From contig BPJV01000003.1 in assembly GCA_026004795.1 (NCBI GenBank), positions 620,001-684,000 of the forward strand: DNA of 64,000 nt, in the 5' to 3' direction. Shown here piece by piece: positions 3,001 through 27,039 of the stretch. How positions within the stretch are numbered: position 1 is the stretch's first letter; every line of letters begins with the position of its first letter. The stretch comes from Pirellulaceae bacterium (GTDB lineage: Bacteria > Planctomycetota > Planctomycetia > Pirellulales > Pirellulaceae). The notes below the pieces were generated by a model. It searched no databases and was not told the DNA's origin. It saw nothing but the letters and a program-made list of their open reading frames with translations. The translations under genes were made by a program, and so were the position numbers.

Positions 3001-4165
3001 AAACTGGCTTGTTCGATCTCGATTCCACTCGGGCTGGACAACTCGACCGTCAACGGTGCCGGGATGCCCGGCTTGATCCAAACCTGCGCCGCCTCATTGG
3101 TACCGGGTCCGGGGGTAACCACTTCCAGGATTGGCCGGCCACTGATGGCGATCGACGGCGACTGAGTTGACAATGGGGAAACATGGGGACCGTCATCCCA
3201 GCGGGTTCGTAACCCGGCTTCGGCAAGAATGTCTCCTTTCGACCAGGGAGTCTGCCGCCCCGACTCGGACGTCGCCAACACGGTGGCCACCATCGGAGCC
3301 ATCGAATCGGCGGTCACGCGCCAACGGAGCGCTTCCACCAATGGGCGCGTGCCGAGCAACGGCTCACCGAACCAATCACTCAGTTGTTCGTCGCCGAAAG
3401 CCCTGGCATTCATTTCGGGTTGCAACCGGCGGAAGAAATCGAGGTTTCGCTCGATGGCGTCCTGCAGCAGCGACCCGTACTGAGAGCCTGCCGCGTCGCG
3501 CTTCGCGATCAAGTCGGCCGTAAGGTGTTCGCCGAGCAACGTGACGTTTCCCAGCCATTCAAGCAATTCCGTGCCGGCATCGTCGGTTGCCCGCTCGGCC
3601 GCCTTGTACGTCTGCATCCGCGCTTCGATCGACACGTTACCAAGGTTTTGATACGCCTCGCTCGCGGTTTGTGCCTCTTGAATCGAGCCCGTGACAGCTC
3701 CGTTGTACCATTCGACCAGCAGCGGCTGCAGGCCCACCAGATCTCCCGGATGGACGACCCCTCCGGATTGCACGATCAGCCGTTCCCGCTCGGCACGCAC
3801 CGCGTCTGCGTCCGCGGATGCGGCATTGGGCGAGACCGCCGGACTGACCGTGCCGGAGGCCGTCGCGTAGTTCGCCTCGTCGGTCACCACCTGGAAATTG
3901 AGGTTGTCCGTGTAGGCATGTCCCTTCTCGAAGTAGACGGCGCCTAGGACGGCCGTGTCGACCGCGCCGGCGGGCGGGAAGTACTCCGCAAACGTATAGC
4001 CGTCCGGGCTCGTCCGCGCGCCGACGCGCACGCGCGTGGCAGCCCCGGACGGAGTCAAACTGCCGAGGTCTTCGTTGAGCAGGTAGAAAGTGACCGGCGC
4101 ATCGGCGAGCGGTCCCCCGTCCGCGGACCACGCGTGCCCGGAGTAGCACCGACTGTTGTGGCCCC
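1..4165 (-). CDS. Giant secreted protein, downstream segment after a frameshift (partial, open at left edge)
   Basis: This is the continuation, in another minus-strand frame, of the subtilase-like giant protein that begins at about 8.88 kb. From about 4130 down to base 1 the frame is open and reads as normal protein: alternating Ig/Big-like beta stretches such as ADAPVTFYLLNED and ENGVARVVYTPP, mixed with acidic, alpha-helical stretches such as LLRRLVQEGEEALEYYTAG. The frame used upstream turns arginine-rich and non-protein-like over the same bases. Several segments have the 'added property, then FTA/FYVTNESGIV' pattern of bacterial Ig-like (invasin-type) domains, which suggests an extracellular adhesin or shell-like role. 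There is no stop codon in the window, so the protein's C-terminus lies outside. The join to the upstream segment is placed by matching the domain pattern SVLLRAR / WSADGGPLADAPVTFYL near 4126-4133. Exact function unknown. Confidence 0.7.
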
Positions 4166-7100
4166 ACCAGCGGTGGCGAATCGGAAACCGAATCGTTGCC
4201 CGCCACGCCTCCTTCCAACTCGACATGCGGGCGCCCCAAGACGACTTCCGTGCGCGACTCGGCCAGCGGCAGCTCTTTGATACCGGCCGTGAATTCCACT
4301 TGGGCCAAGGTATCGTTCTCGCCCAAGTGCACGCTCGTCCGTACAACCCCCGTTGCATCCGTGGTCAACTCGACCGATCCGTCGTTGCGCTCGGAATCGA
4401 ACCAGTCGATCCCGGGGAGGCCTACCAGCTCCAGCAGTTGATCGAGTGTGCTGTTTTCCGTGGCCGGGGCTCCGGATACCCGATTGCTGTTGTCCCGACC
4501 GCGGGCGCGAATCACGACCTGCTGGGTATCGAACACGGGCGCGCCGAACTTGGAATCGTAGTCCGGCGCCTTCGGGTCGGCATTGATCGGCACGCCGGTA
4601 TGCTTGAATTGGATTCCCGCCTTCGCTCGGAATAGCGCTTCGTCATCCTTTCCCAATAAGCCGTCTTCCGTTTGGGCCACGAGTGATGTTTCTTCGTTCA
4701 CGATCACGACGCGCAACGGAAGATGCTCCATCACGTATCGCGGCGAGATATCGGTGCGAACGTCGGTCAGGTTGAAGAAGTCGGCGGTCGTTGCCCATTG
4801 GACCATGTCGTAGGCGCGGTCGAGATAACCGTCGCCGCCGTCCCGGGCTGGTCCTCGGGGGTTGGCATGGAAGATGGCGATGGCATCGTCGTGGGCCCGC
4901 CGAATGGCCTCGGCGATCGCATCGGCAACGCTCAATCTCAACTGATCCAAAAGAGAAACCTGTTGGGACGGTGCGGTGTCTCGGCCGCCCCACAGCGCAC
5001 TGAGCGTCCGGTTGAAAAGCTCCCAGTCACCGAGCGCTGCGATGAGCGAATCGCGGAATTCGCCCCACGTCTGGTTGCCGTCAAAGTCCGGCGAACCGGG
5101 ATCCAGCCGGTTGATTCGCTCTTTGACGGAGAGGTTCGTATCGTCCGGATCACCACTTCCACTCAGCCACTCGGCCATCGCCTGGAGAATACCGCTGTCG
5201 TTCGCGTCTGCGGCGCCTTCTTCGATTCTCTGTCGGATCATCGTCCGTGCACGCTCGGCATCGGCCGTTGGTGGAATGTCTTCGGGCAGGGCACCTCGCG
5301 GCTTGGTAACCGTTGCCATGACCTGGCTGACGCTTTCTCCAAAGCCGGATGCCAGACCGGACAGATAATCCGCCAGACCGATTCCGTCGATCAGGGCATA
5401 GCCCGCCTCCAAGGCATTGGCGAGAAACACACCTGCCGTGTAGTCCTGAACGCCGTCTTCGTCCACATCGGGGTTTTTCAGATCCAACTGACCCCAAGTG
5501 AATTGGACGTTCGCCAGCGACGAAGCGGAAAGATCCGTCAGTTCGATTCCCAAACCGGCCGAACCCCGAATTCGAAACGGATCGCCGCCGTGTGCCGTAT
5601 TCGGCAAACGCGGATCAACATCAACGTAGTCGAGAAATCCGAGCACGAGATCGGCGTCCACCGTACCGGTAATCGTGGCCGGCTCGCCAGCAGCGACCGG
5701 ATCGAGCGCGAGTCGCACGTCGTTGGCCAGATGCTCACCCACATCGCCCAGTCGCATGCGCCCCGCGCCCGGATCGAACGTCAACACGGGTCGCGCTTGA
5801 ATGTTACCAACCAACTGAACCGTACTGCTGAAGTGCCTGCCTCTGGCCGCCGGCTCGACTACGACGCGCCCCCCGATGTGGGTCGCCGAGTCCAGGTAAC
5901 TGCCTGCCGTATCCAAGCCGAACTGCACCAGGGCTTCCGGAAGAAACGTGCCCCGTACGGTCCCTTCCAAGCCGAACTGATCGAGCGCGCCGAGCGTGTC
6001 CTTTCCCAACGAGAAATCGAACTCGGCACTGAGCGGGGCAAAAGCATGCTCCGGTACCGTAAACGACAGGGTCACGAGCTGGTCGTTGGACAATTGCGTG
6101 GCATCGCCGGAAAGGAACGCGCGCAACGCATCGTCCGAGGTCATCTGCACGTCGATCCCGATCAATCCGAGTGCACTGCTGGTGGGAACGCGTGGTGGCA
6201 ACAGCGGTTGCGAGCCGTCGTCGGGGGGAAGCAAGCCAAGCCGATCTGCGGCGCGCACGGCGTTGATCAGACCGTATCCTTCCTCGTCGGTGTAGTCTTC
6301 GCCCGAAAACGTTTGGGCGGATCCGGTCAGCGCGTCGGTGATCAGGGCTCTCCATTGCGTTTGGGGACGACCATCCTTTTCCAGTAGCTCCATCAGCAGG
6401 CCGCTGACCGCGGCGACGTGAGCCGCCGCGGCTCCCGTGCCGTCGAATCGCCGACTCGCTCCGCCCGCCCCGCTGACTTTTACACCCGACACTCCCAGCA
6501 CGTCGAGCGAAGGCACGGGCGTTTGGCCACGCCTCGTCGATGGACCGGCGTTGCTGGTCGGCGAGACCTGGTTCGGCTGGGCGATGTCCATGGCACCAAC
6601 GACCAGCACGTGCGGCAGGCTTTTGTGGGATACAAGGGCATCGCCACGTTGAGTCGGATCCACTTGAAACACAAGACCGCGATCGCCGAAGATCTCGAAT
6701 TCGGGCAGCACATCCGGTTTTGCCTGCTGGGCCAGTTCCACCACGAAGTATGCCGTCTCGCCCTGATCGAGCGAAAAGAATAACTCGGCGGATGCCGACG
6801 GCTGAGCTTCGGAGGTGGCGACCGTACCGGTAATCGTCTTTGTCGCCGGGGCGTAATCAACGCGGTGAAGGACCAGCCGGTTTTGGGGATCATAGAATGA
6901 GTCGTTCCATTGGAGCGAGAGCCGGTGGTTGCCCGAAGTGCTCGCCTGGACCTGCAGCACGAACCGGCCGTCAACGTCGTTTCCCGGATCGATGATGTGT
7001 AAATCCCCCATCGCTGTCGAATCGGGAGCCATCGTTTCCTGAAAATGGTTCAGCCGATCGTCGCCGGCGCTCGTGATCCACGTGACGCCGTGTGTCTCAA

Positions 7101-8943
7101 GGAGTTCACGCAATTGGGCTGTGAACCAACTGTCCTGGAACCATGTGTCGTTGAGAAAGGAATAGTCGTCGACGATCACGTCGGCACCGGCGGCGATCAG
7201 GGCCTTCGCCCCTTCGATAAACAGAACCTGTTTGTCCTCCGCATCATTCGTCTCAAACGGAGCGTCGATGCCCCAGAACAAGAGTTGGGCGTCGGGAGCG
7301 ACATCATGAATGATCTCCATCATGCCGATACCGCCGCTGCCAAAACCGGCGCGACGCACGTCGACCCATGGTCCGGGTTGTGACTCGTCGGTGCGCAGAG
7401 CTGGCAGATCGCCGGTCGTGATGGCCCTGTTGAGTGCCGTCCATGTGGTCGGCTCGGCGCCTGAGGTCGCAATGCCGTCGGAAATCACGGCGATTTTGAT
7501 GCCGGCCCCGGAGACGCCGGCTCGGTGCCGTAGCCGATCGGCTTCCAGCCACTGGTCGCCCTCCGTGGCGAACAGTCCCTGCCCGCCTTGCGGCACGTCG
7601 ACCAGACCGCGAAGCCAACCGACAAACCGATCCATCCAGATGGAATCACCGCTCGCGTCATGATCAGCAACGGCGCGGGAGGTCGTCACGCTCTTGGCTT
7701 CGAGCGACCCTGTAAAGGGTAAGACCAATTCGCCGATTTTGTCGAGCAATTCAGGTTGGAAGTACTGGTCCAGCGTGTCGGACAATCGCGATGTTAAGGA
7801 ACTCAGCAACACGTCGCCGGAGACCGGAGCCAGGTTGTCGGTGACCGTAACCGTGCCATCTGCGGACGATAGCATCCAAGCGTCCGTGAATGTATAGCCC
7901 GTGTCGCCGCCGTCGAGCTGCAGTGACCAGTCGAGTGCGATCTCGGCGGATGCTGTAGCCGTTGATTGGAAGGTGGTGGTCGGATCGGAAAACTGTGCCG
8001 CGCGAAGACGGACGGGGGCGCCGGCGGCGGCTAGCGCAAGATGCAAATCGGCCGTGACCTGACTTGTGGGTTGCGCAAGAAGCGAAAACGCGCCGCCCGG
8101 AAGCGGCGATTGTCCCGTCATCGGGTCCGCCGACGTGATCGATGCGTCGAAGATCGTGAGAGGTTCCAAGTAGAACGCCGTTTCGTCGACCCCCAAGTTC
8201 CAGTCGAACGAGAGGTCGAGCGACGGGTTCAAATCGGCGGCGAGCGCAGCACCGGGAGCCAATCCGGTAAGCTGGGAGTTCATCGTGTCGTCGTAAGGAA
8301 TGCTCGTGCCTTGGTCGCTGAGCGAGGCGACAATGGGCACCGCCAGAAGATTCCTGTCACATGCCGCGTCACCGAGAACGCATGCGCTGCCGTATCCCAA
8401 GTTCTGCAGTGCCGTGCGGAGATCGGTGAGCGTGTTCAGGGAAGTCGCCTCGTCGATCGTCTTCAAGTTGGCCGTGGCCCATGAAGTCAAGAGCGAATCC
8501 ACTCCCAAGGCGCCGGCCACCGCGTCGGGCAAAACGAGTAGATCCTCGCCATGGGTGTCCAGTGCGGCCGCCCAATCGGGCAGTGCCGCCAACAGCGCCG
8601 TAACCCCGGCATTCCATTGCGACCGCAGTTGTTGCGCAAGAGCGGCTTGATCCACCGCCGTAACTTCCAGCGCCATTTGCGTGGCTGTGGTCATCGGCGT
8701 CAATCGACGCGTCGCATCAATATAAACTCCGCTGACCTGCGAAAAACTGCCGTTGACGTTTGCCGCGGAAACAACATCGAATTGCTCACCGACCGCCGGA
8801 TCCAATCCCGGCAGGGGATCAAGATTGAGCCGGCCGCCGAGCGATGCCGTGCCGGTAACTTGGAGTTGCGAGAAATCCGTGGCTACCTTGCGCGCGGTGA
8901 TGACCGAGGAGCCAGTGCCGCCGCGACGAGAGCGAAAGGACAT
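3637..8943 (-). pseudogene. Subtilase-like (S8) giant secreted protein, N-terminal segment; truncated 5' and frameshifted
   Basis: The frame is open for 1768 codons but is trustworthy only from about 8880 to about 4130. The first 20 or so residues are antisense to a kinase gene and the last 170 are out of frame. Residues about 25-75 look like the end of an autotransporter-type beta domain (QLQVTGTASLGG... FDVVSA). Residues about 480-850 form a peptidase S8 domain of the 'DVxx' type: Asp489 in AVISDG, His546 in EIIHDVAP, the family block AGADVIVDDYSF, and TGAAAAHVAA. The catalytic Ser of GTS is Gly837 and the oxyanion Asn of AAGN is Asp (TSAGDD, about 629), so it should not cleave. Asp- and Gly-rich beta domains follow, and an Ig-like domain near 4200-4400. 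Probably extracellular. No real start codon is present: the coding pattern begins at the junction near 8880. The frameshift and the junction may be mutation or assembly error. Confidence 0.7.
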
Positions 8944-22523: not shown

Positions 22524-22738
22524 TCTACTTCAGGTCGCGAAGCATGCTGGCGTTAAGAGCCACGTCCGCTTGCGATAGTCACACTGAGCCAGGAATTCCG
22601 CCCGACATCAAGCGCGGTTTTGCTAGGTTTCGGCGGGCCTCGTTGGTACCGCCGGTGGCCAGAGCTGCTACCGCTGGCGTGCAGGCTTTGATAGACTGCG
22701 AAGGGCGGCGAAAACCCTTCGGAGGGAATGAACAAGTG

Positions 22739-22936
22739 ATGACGAAGTTGTCCGAATACGTGATGACGGCCAAGGCGGCGGAGATCCTCGGCGTGGCCGA
22801 TGTGGAAGACGACGACGAACCGTTCGAGGAAAAGATGCAGCGTTTGACGGCCGAGTTGTACGAGTGCCTGTCCGAATCGGAATCGCTCGCCGCGCAGATT
22901 AAGGCGAATCTGGAGGGGCTGGGTTCTGGCGGGTAG
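22739..22936 (+). pseudogene. hsdM: Chimeric fragment: excisionase-like start plus HsdM C-terminal tail
   Basis: A 65-residue frame after GGAGGG and the ATG at 22739. Residues 4-18 (LSEYVMTAKAAEILGV) match the opening of MerR/excisionase-type helix-turn-helix domains. From residue 21 on, EDDDEPFEEKMQRLTAELYECLSESESLAAQIKANLEGLG matches the extreme C-terminus of type I DNA methyltransferases (HsdM), which end with the 'FEEKM.RLT..L...F.ES..LE..I..NL.GLGY' helix pair. The catalytic methylase domain with NPPY is absent. This looks like a deletion scar that joined two genes. It could still be translated as a microprotein. Confidence 0.55.
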
Positions 22937-22948
22937 CGGGAAGATTGG

Positions 22949-23011
22949 AAACACAGAGGCACAGAGGGCACGGAGAGATCACCGCTCTGTGTTCTCTCTG
23001 CCTCTGTGTTT
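22949..23011. repeat. CACAGAGG palindromic repeat, copy 1
   Basis: Left arm AAACACAGAGGCACAGAGG and right arm CTCTGCCTCTGTGTTT form a long imperfect inverted repeat around a short centre. The 34 bases starting GGAAGATTGG before and through the left arm are nearly identical in copies 1 and 2. The GTG start of the GxxExxY gene lies inside the right arm. Confidence 0.85.
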
Positions 23012-23410
23012 CAATCGAATTGCGAGCACATCAGAAATACGAACGACCTGACCAGTTCGATCATCGGTGCGGCCATTGAAGTTCACAAACGCCTCGGCCC
23101 GAGACTTCTCGAATCGGCCTACCGCGTGTGTCTGGCGTACGAACTACGGAAACGAGGCTTCGAGGTGATTGAGGAACAACCGATTCCGGTGGTTTACGAC
23201 GACGTCAAACTCGAATGCGGATTGCGGGCGGACCTGATTGTGAATGGACAGGTCGTGGTTGAACTGAAGGCGAAGTCAGCCATTCATCCGGTGGACAAGG
23301 CGCAAACGCTGTCGCACCGGCGATTGATGGGGTTGCGCTTCGGGCTGTTGATCAATTTTCATGAGGTCAAACTGGTGGACGGCGTTTATCGGATTGTGAA
23401 CGGGTATTGA
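23006..23410 (+). CDS. GxxExxY family protein (PD-(D/E)XK nuclease fold)
   Basis: A 134-residue protein matching the GxxExxY family: TSSIIGAAIEVHKRLGPRLLESAYRVCLAYELRKRG. Here the first Gly of the namesake motif is Arg33, followed by Glu36 and Tyr39. A PD-(D/E)XK-like core follows: Asp76 in LRADLIV and Glu86-Leu-Lys88 in VVVELKAK. Family members are small, of unknown role, and often sit among short palindromic repeats in environmental bacteria. This one is flanked by three such repeats and its only plausible start, GTG 23006, is inside the right arm of copy 1. The core residues are intact, so it may be functional. Possible roles are repeat mobilisation or nucleic-acid processing, neither proven. 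Confidence 0.8.
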   Translation: MFQSNCEHIRNTNDLTSSIIGAAIEVHKRLGPRLLESAYRVCLAYELRKRGFEVIEEQPIPVVYDDVKLECGLRADLIVNGQVVVELKAKSAIHPVDKAQTLSHRRLMGLRFGLLINFHEVKLVDGVYRIVNGY

Positions 23411-23431
23411 GATGGAAAACCGGAAGATTGG

Positions 23432-23503
23432 AAACACAGAGGCACAGAGGGCACGAAGAAGCGGCCGCGCGATCGGCTCTGTGTTCTCTCTGCCTCTGTG
23501 TTT
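23432..23503. repeat. CACAGAGG palindromic repeat, copy 2
   Basis: Arms AAACACAGAGGCACAGAGG and CTCTGCCTCTGTGTTT, with a centre containing GAAGAAGCGGCCGCGCGATC. It starts 21 bases after the stop of the GxxExxY gene. Confidence 0.85.
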
Positions 23504-23598
23504 CTACCTTTTCCGCGACCCTTCTCAAACTGCATCTCCGGCGACGCTCTCCGCGCTTCCGGTCACCGAGGTAGGCGGCGATGCGTGAGTTCGTTGGG

Positions 23599-23670
23599 AA
23601 ACACAGAGACACAGAGGGCACGAAGAAGCGGCCGCGCGATCGGCTCTGTGTTCTCTGTGCCTCTGTGTTT
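23599..23670. repeat. CACAGAGG palindromic repeat, copy 3
   Basis: Arms AAACACAGAGACACAGAGG and CTGTGCCTCTGTGTTT. The centre, GAAGAAGCGGCCGCGCGATC, is identical to copy 2, while copy 1 has a different centre. It lies about 70 bases upstream of the DUF3800 gene. Confidence 0.85.
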
Positions 23671-23738: not shown

Positions 23739-24623
23739 ATGAGCTGGCTGTTGTTCCTTGACGAAAGCGGGCATGACCACCGGCAGATGCCCTACGATGT
23801 TCGCGGCGGTGTGGCTCTGCAGGATGCTCAGCTTTGGCCGTTCGTGCAAGCGATGCAGCGACTTGAACTCGATTCCTTCGGCGGGCAACTGCACCACTAC
23901 CGCAAGGAATTGAAAGGGAGCACGCTGGTCGACCGGAAACGTTTCCGATTTGCCAACCAGGCGTCGCCGATGAAACCCGAAGCACGCCGGAAACATGCTC
24001 GCGGGTTTCTGACCAAAGGGCTGGAGAAGAAGACGCCGACTCGCGACGAATTCACGGCCTACGGGCAGGCTTGTCTTGAGATGGCGCGCGGCATATTTTA
24101 ACTGCTCAGGGATCACCGAGCCGTAGTCTTCGCAGCGGCGATTCCGGCCCGCATGAAAAAGCCCGGTCAGGCACGCCTTGACGAATTCCTGCGCAAGGAC
24201 CACGTCTTCCTGCTGGAACGTTATTTCTATTTTCTGGAAGCTCAGCGCCAGCATGGGCTGCTGGTCATGGACGAGGTCGAAAAAGCGGCTGATCGCAAGT
24301 TCGTGCGGCAATTGGAAGCGTACTTCACGAAGACCAGTACCGGACGCTACCGAACGGCGTGGATCGTGCCAACGCCGTTCTTTGTGTCGTCAGACATGAC
24401 GTATCCGGTTCAGGCAGCGGACCTGTGCATTTATTGCCTCAACTGGGGATTCCGTCTTCCGTCTCAGGGGATGAACGGGCCAACACGAACTGAGATTGCC
24501 GATGAGTTCGGCCGCTGGCTCGGTCAATTGCAGTTCAAAGGCGAAGGAGAGAAGGACGGGCGAGTCTTCCAAAGCTGGGGCATCGTCTATGTTCCGAACC
24601 CGTACGCCCCCGGGAGGACATGA
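23739..24623 (+). pseudogene. DUF3800 family protein interrupted by one in-frame stop
   Basis: Residues 1-120 begin MSWLLFLDESGHD, the hallmark of DUF3800 (an acidic LDESG strand), and continue RGGVALQDAQLWPFV. Codon 121 (24099-24101) is TAA. The same frame resumes at once with LLRDHRAVVFAAAIPARMKKP and runs to 24623 through FLEAQRQHGLLVMDEVEKAADRKFVRQL, SSDMTYPVQAADLCIYCLNWGF, the usual second conserved block of the family. One base change, for example GAA to TAA, explains the interruption. The full frame would be about 294 residues. DUF3800 proteins are common in mobile and defence islands and their activity is not established. An internal ATG at 24153 could restart translation of the C-terminal half. 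Confidence 0.75.
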
Positions 24624-25810
24624 TTTGGGAGGACATGACATGGGAGTGCGCACAAAAAAAGAGGCAATGCCTTTGGGACCACCCACAAGGAGCCGTCCCG
24701 CAGCCGAGCCTCCAATAACAGTATCGGCCCGGATCTACCCAAAGTCAAGCAATGTTATCGACTTGCACTGTCCTTTCGCGACTCCGATTGACTCCGGCCG
24801 CGGTCCTTCAGTTAGTGCTTCGAATCGAGAGCACGAGGTAAACCGCCCAACCGATACGCGACAGCCCATGGTCGCCTTGAAAACTGAAGCATGAAGAATC
24901 GTTTCTGATGACTGACGCCAACCAGATTCGTGAATCCCGGCCAATTACCGTCCTCTGTCTGAAACAGTGGTCGAGCGGGCGGCTTTGGGATGGTTCGAAG
25001 CACTCAACTACGACGTGGAACGCGGGGCCGACATCTCGCCCGGTGCAGACAATCCGCTCAGGGCGAGTTACGAAGACGTCGTGCTTGAGCCGCGTCTGCG
25101 AGCGGCGCTGCGGAAGATCAATTCGTACTTGTCGGACGATGCCATCGAGCAGGCCGTTCGCGTCGTCGCTCGGCCGCCGGAACCGACGCTGATCCAAAAC
25201 AACCGTTGGTTCCACCGGCTGCTGACCGACGGAATCGATGTCGAGTATCGAACCAAGTCGGGCGAAACACGCGGCGACAAGGCATGGCTGGTCGATTTTG
25301 CTCGACCGAAGAACAACGACCTGCTGGTGGTCAATCAGTTCACCGTCAAATGCGGCAACGCGACACGGCGGCCGGATCTGGTTGTCTTTCTGAACGGCCT
25401 GCCGATTGCCGTCATTGAACTGAAGGATCCCGCCGACGAGCAGGCCGACTTGTGGAAGGCCTATCGCCAGTTGCAGGACTACAAGCAGAACATTCCACCG
25501 CTGTTCGTCTACAACGAGTTGCTGGCGATCAGCGATGGCGATTCCACGCGCGTCGGTTCCCTGACCGCCGACAACGACCGCTTCGCGCCGTGGCGATCGA
25601 TCGAAGATTACCGCAATCCGGGACATCACGTTCTGGAAGTTCTGATCAAGGGACTGTTCGAGCCGTCGCGGCTGGTCGACTATCTGCGGCACTGCATCAC
25701 GTTTGAAGAAGACGAACGCTCCGGCGACATCATCAAGAAGATCGCGGCCTACCACCAGTTCCGCGCGGTGCGGAACGCACGGGAGTCGGTGAAGCGGGCG
25801 CTGCGCAATC

Positions 25811-25883
25811 AGCCGCAGGGCGCTAGCCCCGGTTCGACCGGCGCGGCAGATCGGGGGGAACCGGACGCTAGCGCGTTCCGGCT
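25811..25883. repeat. GCTAGC-type palindromic element inside hsdR, copy 1
   Basis: Left arm AGCCGCAGGGCGCTAGCCCC and right arm GGACGCTAGCGCGTTCCGGC form an imperfect inverted repeat. The hsdR frame runs straight through, encoding a Gly/Ser/Ala-rich insert (QGASPGSTGAADRGEPDASA) between RNARESVKRALRNQ and the Walker A region. Confidence 0.7.
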
Positions 25884-26527
25884 GATGGAATCGGGCGATG
25901 GCCGAGGCGGGGTTATCTGGTACACACAGGGGGTCCGGCAAAAGCCTGTCCATGTTGATGCTTGCGGGTGCACTGATCGCCGACGAGCAGCTCGCCAATC
26001 CGACGATCGTCGTCGTCACGGACCGGAACGATCTGGACGGCCAACTGTTCGCCACGTTCGCAGCCGGACGTGCGTTGTTGCGGCAGCAGCCGGAACAGGC
26101 CGAGAGCCGCGACGATCTGGCAGCGAAACTGAATCGCGCCTCGGGCGGCGTCGTCTTCACCACGATTCAGAAATTCGAAGAACGCGGCGGTCCGGTCAGC
26201 GAACGGTCGAACATCGTCGTCCTCGCCGACGAAGCCCATCGCAGCCAGTACGGGTTCCTCGACGGCGGTGCTCGCTGGATGCGGGACGCGATCCCAAATG
26301 CCACCTTCGTCGGCTTCACTGGAACCCCGATCGAAAGCGACGACAAGAACACTCCGGCTGTCTTCGGCGACTACTGCGACATCTACGACATCCGGCAGGC
26401 CATCGACGACAACGCGACCGTACCCATCTTTTATGAGATGCGGCTCGTCAAACTGCTGCCGGATGAGGAAGGCATTGCCGAGGCGGAAGCCCAGATCACA
26501 GCGGCGTTGCAGTCACCCTCAGCAAGT

Positions 26528-26596
26528 GAGCCGCTGGGCGCTAGCCCCGGTTGTCGCGATGCGGATTCAGGAACCGGGGCTAGCGCCCAACGGCTG
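26528..26596. repeat. GCTAGC-type palindromic element inside hsdR, copy 2
   Basis: Left arm GAGCCGCTGGGCGCTAGCCC and right arm GGGGCTAGCGCCCAACGGCT pair almost perfectly. It is in frame, encoding [20 protein letters not shown], and resembles copy 1 about 700 bases upstream. Confidence 0.75.
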
Positions 26597-27039
26597 ATAG
26601 CGAAGGCCGCTCGGACCGAGGACACCGCCGGCGCAGTTCCCCCAGACATCAGCGCTCCGCTCGAGGAACTTGTCGGCGCGGAGCGGCGGCTGAAACTGGT
26701 GGCGAAGGAAATCGTCGAGCATTTCGAGAAGCGGCGGGAGGCGATCGAAGGCAAAGGCATGGTCGTCTGCATGAGCCGCAAGATCTGCATCGACCTCTAC
26801 AACGAGATCACCAAGCTGCGGGCGGACTGGCATGCCGACGAAGACGACGAGGGTTTCATCAAGGTCGTGATGACCGATGGCGTCCCGCCACAACGCAGAG
26901 GCGAGAGCGACGCGGACTACCAGAAGCGAATCGAGCCACTGATCGAACCCATCAAGTACCACGGCCGGACCAAGGGCCGACGGGCTCGTGGCGTGACTGA
27001 AACAACTCACCCCTGACCAGCAATCCCGGAGCAACCGAC

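Follow-up and report, generated by a model that had tools for sequence, protein, structure and literature searches.

The question raised by this locus is why a small gene for a nuclease-like protein should lie among palindromic repeats. The window (the whole 64,000-nucleotide stretch of the Pirellulaceae bacterium that was analysed) contains a gene of the GxxExxY family set among three such repeats. The original prediction likened this layout to that of repetitive extragenic palindromic (REP) elements tied to a REP-associated tyrosine transposase (RAYT), with a PD-(D/E)XK protein in place of the transposase. We propose, with a probability of roughly 0.68, that the GxxExxY gene and its flanking repeats constitute one mobile unit of about 0.5 kb, and that the nuclease launches the movement or copying of its family's units. 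This reading draws on the cognate flanking of the genes, the co-variation of repeat and protein, a genomic site seen empty, solo and full, the dispersal of the hairpins and, from a few comparable elements, the boundaries of the unit.

The window gene and its hairpins

The gene and its repeats are arranged as follows.

22949..23011: hairpin copy 1, upstream of the GxxExxY gene (+ arm 22952-22975, - arm 22985-23008)
23006..23410, + strand: GxxExxY / PDDEXK_3 gene, TIGR04256/PF13366 match, GTG start within hairpin copy 1
23042-23395: conserved domain of the GxxExxY gene (D64, E74, K76 and Q88 in domain numbering)
23432..23503: hairpin copy 2, immediately 3' of the GxxExxY gene (+ arm 23435-23458, - arm 23477-23500)
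23599..23670: hairpin copy 3 (+ arm 23602-23625, - arm 23644-23667)

The gene matches TIGR04256 (E 4.5e-36, 123.7 bits; curated cut-off 35) and PF13366, the PDDEXK_3 family (1e-34, 119.8 bits; curated cut-off 22). These are its sole family matches, with no transposase family among them. Copies 1-3 are all imperfect palindromes of 63-72 bp, as had been predicted, and each consists of one + arm and one - arm with three units per arm, such as CACAGAG, CACAGAG and CACGGAG. Over 74 nt, copies 2 and 3 share 97% identity, and they do have a common centre, GCGGCCGCGC, from which the centre of copy 1 differs. The claim that copy 1 holds the only plausible start codon stands in so far as its GTG is the sole ATG, GTG or TTG before the domain. 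However, the two closest paralogues in the window genome have an ATG further in, which has no counterpart in the window gene, so the ancestral start has probably been lost. The name-giving Gly is Gly in 86/88 aligned rows and Arg in the other two, one of which is the window gene; its family membership rests on the whole-length match.

A 23-nt half-site of the repeat, with as many as 3 mismatches allowed, has 23 occurrences in the 5.59 Mb window genome and its reversed control has none, which argues against chance. All but one of these occurrences (22/23) are found no more than 2 kb from one of three GxxExxY genes, out of six in this genome; the remaining one, on C11, is away from GxxExxY matches. 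The C11 half-site (L067:7368-7472) adjoins a repeat of another class, the CGCAAAG type.

Generality of the flanking repeats

GxxExxY genes are present in 46 of 60 genomes (the window genome and its relatives), with up to 19 matches per genome. From these we collected 88 distinct full-length genes, 83 of which were used and five dropped for short flanks, and scored the 300 bp upstream of each gene against its own 300 bp downstream in inverted orientation. A match score of at least 16 was reached by 69 of the 83 genes, compared with 5 of 180 control windows from the same contigs. A second set comprised the best 80 of 581 loci from named genomes, 75 of them with enough flank, and sampled 14 phyla. 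Here the inverted match was found at 66/75 loci and in 7/220 controls, and the positive loci came from 13 of the 14 phyla, archaea among them. Most sampled GxxExxY genes are thus flanked by their own cognate inverted repeats; the observation made in the window is real and holds far beyond it, and the positional link between repeat and gene that had been anticipated is present both in the genome and in its relatives.

Could the pattern be an artefact, a simple sequence of 9-nt period that happens to lie close to a small gene? The units are short and partly degenerate, and in the cross-phylum set 14.3% of arms paired across different loci reach the threshold, because the loci share one motif plan. 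In the first set, however, the two arms flanking one gene match with a median of 24, compared with a median of 11 against the arms of other loci. The low rates in the controls, including other small genes (inverted flanks in 11/226), the reversed pattern (0 vs 23) and the many phyla involved make coincidence extremely unlikely. Terminators were also considered and dropped, given the rarity of inverted flanks around other small genes. An Rfam search gave nine matches up to E 1, all below the gathering score and mostly to hairpin microRNA families.

Repeat class and the protein tree

The usual plan of an arm is three 7-nt units, CRCNNA[G/T/A], spaced 8-10 nt, with the opposite orientation across the gene. 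In some Bacteroidota an arm has four units, and Flavobacterium has the additional unit classes CATTAAG and CATATAAG. On a maximum-likelihood tree of the 88 proteins, with unit class labelled for 71 loci, the last letter of the unit is G in 45 and T or A in 26. The division between G and the rest needs a single change on this tree (support 92/89); shuffled labels need 21.4 on average, and none of 500 shuffles was as low. In Flavobacterium, where unit classes were labelled for 70/77 loci, five classes need 11 changes compared with 36.7 when shuffled (0/200 as low). Judged from these trees, repeat class follows protein clade.

Unit boundaries and a site with and without the element

The elements have a median size of 519 bp (105 loci), with the GxxExxY domain inside. 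Five elements of the same type from four genera (L033, L040, L041, L069 and L085) were compared, and 7 of the 10 pairs align from repeat to repeat, spanning about -40..-25 to about +390..+403 around the gene. When the flanks of the 105 elements are joined, the junction falls within a long open reading frame (ORF) in 21 cases; random points do so in 421/525.

An intergenic site in Flavobacterium was seen in several states. Its neighbours are a hemW-like gene with a HemN_C domain and a putative cyclase gene whose family match is slightly under the cut-off, and the element ends close to a stop codon on one side and to a start codon on the other. In 69 genomes (66 of the 81 in the genus draw plus G062, G063 and G070, the other 15 being not fetched or lacking the two genes side by side), classes set by eye from the printed spacers gave 17 empty sites, 30 solo sites, 12 full GxxExxY elements and 10 with other DNA. 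Empty spacers measure 8-56 bp; those with a gene-less hairpin or remnant, of G and T types, measure 61-116 bp. The solo class includes five right-arm-like remnants of 61-62 bp, and one spacer classed as other (G075) starts with a T-type arm. The same site thus occurs with and without the element, as expected of mobile DNA, and on the spacer sequences it is an intergenic hot spot. The ten other spacers (e.g. L248, L259 and L265) are 307-1206 bp long, and three of them start with TTTCAG and end with TTCAGCATAA.

The state of this site is related to the gene content of the genome. In the 81-genome draw, all 30 genomes with a solo site encode GxxExxY somewhere, compared with 7 of 16 with an empty site (Fisher 1.0e-5); the figure for other DNA is 8 of 10.

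Dispersed hairpins and deleted copies

For one of the hairpin types, R1, a covariance model has matches in 38 of 65 genomes with GxxExxY but in only 1 of 16 without (Fisher 1.5e-4). It finds 14 sites in G086, 19 in G079 and 15 in G127; these counts are lower bounds, covering a single hairpin type, and matches to both strands of a palindromic site were merged by hand. Two of the 48 sites adjoin a GxxExxY gene and another two lie about 2.5 kb off. The dispersed hairpins displayed for G127 have the arms of the hairpin beside its own GxxExxY gene, except L348.

Gene-less derivatives of another sort occur in the window genome. At C1:755 kb, a GxxExxY gene of a different type is accompanied by two copies in which, by eye, just the two ends of the gene are kept between CACGAAT repeats. 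From their sequence these internally deleted copies are derivatives resembling miniature inverted-repeat transposable elements (MITEs). A clean empty site for this cluster was sought in the window's genus with two of three joined constructs, the second one shortened, and none was found. The flanking genes are neighbours in G007 and G001, and no CACGAAT element was seen in the printed spacer sequences, but these carry other DNA and so are not clean empty sites. Elsewhere in the window genome (G000), a sequence of about 305 bp that matches the left flank of the C4:177.5 kb GxxExxY gene recurs at 96-100% identity in eight further places (C4, C7, C9, C16 and C1); it may be a further repeat family or an insertion-sequence end.

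These derivatives bear on the possibility that the repeats are sites with a regulatory or protective role for the nuclease, such as an operator, terminator or self-mark. Selection would keep them alike on either side of the gene, and they would have spread along with it by ordinary recombination without being mobilised by the nuclease. The ends of the Flavobacterium element near stop and start codons, arms that co-vary with the protein and the absence of target duplication (113 loci) all fit such sites. Gene-less hairpins across the genome, internally deleted copies, the empty, solo and full states of one site and the 30/30 vs 7/16 dependence would be left unexplained, and we consider this account unlikely.

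A further candidate is another enzyme. REP- or MITE-like repeats could be moved by a RAYT/Y1 or a DDE transposase, GxxExxY being a passenger captured between the ends. Y1_Tnp genes occur in 11 of 12 tested genomes, the window genome included, and most R1 hairpins are distant from GxxExxY in the three fully listed genomes. Yet the unit of about 519 bp contains the GxxExxY domain, positive loci come from 13 phyla, repeat class tracks the GxxExxY tree, and G125 has 12 R1 matches but no Y1_Tnp match. We also compared 20 Y1 loci (18 from Flavobacterium and two from the window genome) with 25 Flavobacterium GxxExxY loci, part of those fetched. R1 hairpins (E 0.01) were found at none of the Y1 loci but at eight of the GxxExxY loci, six of these at E 2e-4 or better. 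The Y1_Tnp loci (L421-L440) have inverted flanks of their own in 11 of 20 cases, e.g. CTGGACTTCAGTCCAG, which are unlike those of GxxExxY. As far as tested, the two types of repeat coexist and are distinct. The test covered Y1 alone, with DDE transposases left out of the search; taking both enzymes together, a captured passenger seems improbable.

Tandem duplications and neighbouring genes

Two loci of the window genome, C14 and C1:699 kb, repeat the gene-plus-hairpin arrangement with four hairpins each. The C1:699 kb element is placed in a type I operon whose genes are uninterrupted: it separates hsdS from hsdR, and a further hairpin lies at the hsdM/hsdS junction. Stretches of the neighbouring genes are duplicated around these hairpins (partly judged by eye). 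At C14, bordered by a sulfatase gene and a lysyltransferase (MprF-like) gene, an hsdM tail is interleaved with hairpins on both sides of the GxxExxY gene. We considered a CRISPR-like array and dropped this idea, as the spacers at both loci are copies of neighbouring or restriction-modification (R-M) genes. A restriction module was likewise dropped, as the unit has one small gene.

Tandem duplications that include flanks are what a homing-type selfish nuclease might leave behind if it cut repeat-like sites and spread by gene conversion and end joining, the hairpins and duplications being repair products. A PD-(D/E)XK family protein and the lack of target duplication would suit such a nuclease. 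But the putative target is kept on both sides of the element, which would then cut itself, and dispersed hairpins with two matched arms resemble units rather than repair scars. We regard homing as very unlikely.

Two further features of the window belong to the same context.

22820..22936, + strand: 3' tail of hsdM (type I R-M), abutting copy 1 on the left; related tails interleave with the C14 hairpins
23504..23598: 95 bp spacer between copies 2 and 3; its beginning is similar, by eye, to the right flank of the C14 element

The ORF at 22544-22933 has an MTase_I match (8e-10) and, over 37 residues, shares 59% identity with the C-terminus of the L062 HsdM. Between copy 3 and hsdR, an in-frame stop divides a DUF3800 gene (23739-24623) into two ORFs, and hsdR itself (24967-27016) is fragmented. 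By its gene remains, the setting is a decaying type I R-M locus. L062 also encodes, at 3718-7176 (-), an HsdR-like protein of 1153 residues with a GIY-YIG match (9.7e-15, residues 765-830) placed between its helicase and C-terminal parts.

The GxxExxY protein

The protein has a restriction-endonuclease-like fold of the Cas4/RecB-like kind, with a core of 118 residues. The closest solved structure is SSO0001 (4ic1), also Cas4/RecB-like; a sequence search of solved structures with the GxxExxY protein gave no match. The PD-(D/E)XK residues are well conserved over 88 rows: D in 86, E in 80 (D in the other 8), K in 86 and Q in 84. The Tyr of what we take to be the QxxxY motif of Cas4/RecB-like proteins is present in 73/88 rows and is a His in the window gene. 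No iron-sulphur cysteines were found among the invariant or nearly invariant columns of alignment A1 (34 sequences). Their sequences show the element genes to be under purifying selection.

The window protein was unmatched in PADLOC and found no locus in the viral collection, where the A2 query found one. Eight plasmid records match, every one at <60% identity. In the passages of open-access papers that name it, GxxExxY figures as an annotation only and repeats go unmentioned; the repeat sequences themselves led to papers from unrelated fields. We found no description in this literature of nuclease-driven miniature elements of the GxxExxY kind, combined searches giving CRISPR papers at most. 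The pairing of gene and repeats thus looks like a kind of mobile DNA undescribed in the open-access papers searched.

Comparison with known systems

REPINs are described as inverted REP doublets that form hairpins, cluster beside each RAYT of one strain, include flanking sequence in their tandem clusters and are matched in type to their enzyme (PMC3116915). Two TnpA-REP groups are reported to co-evolve with their REPs (PMC8266576). The GxxExxY repeats are similar in being short extragenic imperfect palindromes, arranged as inverted doublets and clustered beside the enzyme gene, with flank-including tandem clusters, an enzyme-matched repeat type and dispersed gene-less copies. They differ in that the enzyme is a Cas4/RecB-like PD-(D/E)XK protein and no HUH Y1, each arm repeats a 7-nt unit in tandem, and the gene is bracketed by the ends, with several loci per genome possible. 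REPs are usually present at >100 copies per genome (PMC2817692); our model, which counts a single hairpin variant, found 14, 19 and 15 sites in three genomes. REPs also have a conserved GTAG-like tetranucleotide at the foot of the palindrome, a motif that we counted at the Y1 loci. The GxxExxY system would therefore work like the REPIN/RAYT pair (REPtron) but fall outside its definition, because the enzyme is not HUH.

Insertion sequences with terminal inverted repeats, and MITEs, share with the GxxExxY elements the inverted ends around one gene, the internally deleted derivatives and the empty and filled sites; unlike them, the GxxExxY elements gave no target-site duplication in 113 loci and no match to a known transposase. 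The IS200/IS605 family has hairpin ends and no target-site duplication, both features shared here, but the GxxExxY gene is not a Y1 transposase. Compared with other Cas4/RecB-like nucleases, GxxExxY stands apart by its 118-residue core, the lack of a conserved cysteine column and the repeats on both sides.

Discussion

On the mobile-unit reading, the unit would run from a left repeat through the GxxExxY gene to an inverted right repeat, and its gene-less derivatives (internally deleted copies and bare two-end hairpins) would behave as MITEs or REPINs. The small Cas4/RecB-like nuclease may recognise, both in cis and in trans, the repeated units that belong to its family, and cut or nick either at the paired ends or at a hairpin. 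Movement or copying so started would be completed by host replication and repair, the outcome being mostly intergenic insertion without target-site duplication and, at several loci, hairpins duplicated in tandem along with their flank. From comparative sequence we infer binding and cleavage by GxxExxY, the form of DNA acted on and the joining step.

Several observations weigh against this reading, in addition to the Y1_Tnp genes and remote hairpins mentioned above. No inverted pair at threshold is found in 14/83, 9/75 and 5/76 loci. Three of the ten boundary pairs extend about 25, 50 and 150 bp further right, and both G012 copies sit on contigs with just 46 bp of sequence to the left of the domain, so that only three pairs test the left boundary. 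Target-site duplication was not found at 113 loci, where own k-mer matches were like those of shuffled pairs. Four supported phylogenetic pairs gave one to three as expected and none opposed, which is not significant. The dispersed hairpins of G086 are mostly CTCGCAAAG-like, and three of its four GxxExxY loci (L370, L372 and L377; the fourth, with an internal stop, was left out) have other motifs; the lack of a cognate gene at these three loci would count against strict dependence, or point to loss. The window's own GxxExxY copy looks degraded. As to the code, unit letters other than the last change more often (2nd letter 14, 4th-5th 27, linker 18; no shuffle was run for these). The CTC-AG class is weakly coherent (7 changes vs 9.6 shuffled), and some longer-type Flavobacterium proteins carry ..GAT units, a last-letter split unlike that of the window's relatives. 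The code is therefore clade-coherent but not universal. Moreover, clade-coherent motifs would also arise if gene and repeats were simply passed on together, so coherence alone does not prove contact.

The RAYT-like organisation suggested by the original prediction is thus borne out by the cognate flanks, the clade-matched repeat class, the dispersed hairpins and the empty, solo and full site; the small number of contrasts, G086 and the degraded window copy fall short of it. A wider claim would be that GxxExxY nucleases mobilise a widespread, undescribed class of mobile DNA. Each would be a minimal Cas4/RecB-like PD-(D/E)XK enzyme that reads its tandem 7-nt units and moves, besides the gene encoding it, hairpins without a gene in trans. 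The system would be a counterpart of REPIN/RAYT that evolved with an unrelated enzyme, is spread over 13 or more phyla (archaea included) and has a readable protein-to-repeat code. On the sequences at hand we consider this an even bet.

If true, a family annotated in bacteria and archaea by motif alone would acquire a function, and a stand-alone PD-(D/E)XK nuclease would be the motor of a mobile element; to our knowledge, no other is known in this role. It would also follow that REP-like repeats arose alongside enzymes of at least two kinds. The natural range of matched nuclease and repeat pairs would allow the recognition to be decoded, and the Cas4-like fold would bear on the origin of hairpin and flap DNA handling by Cas4-type nucleases.
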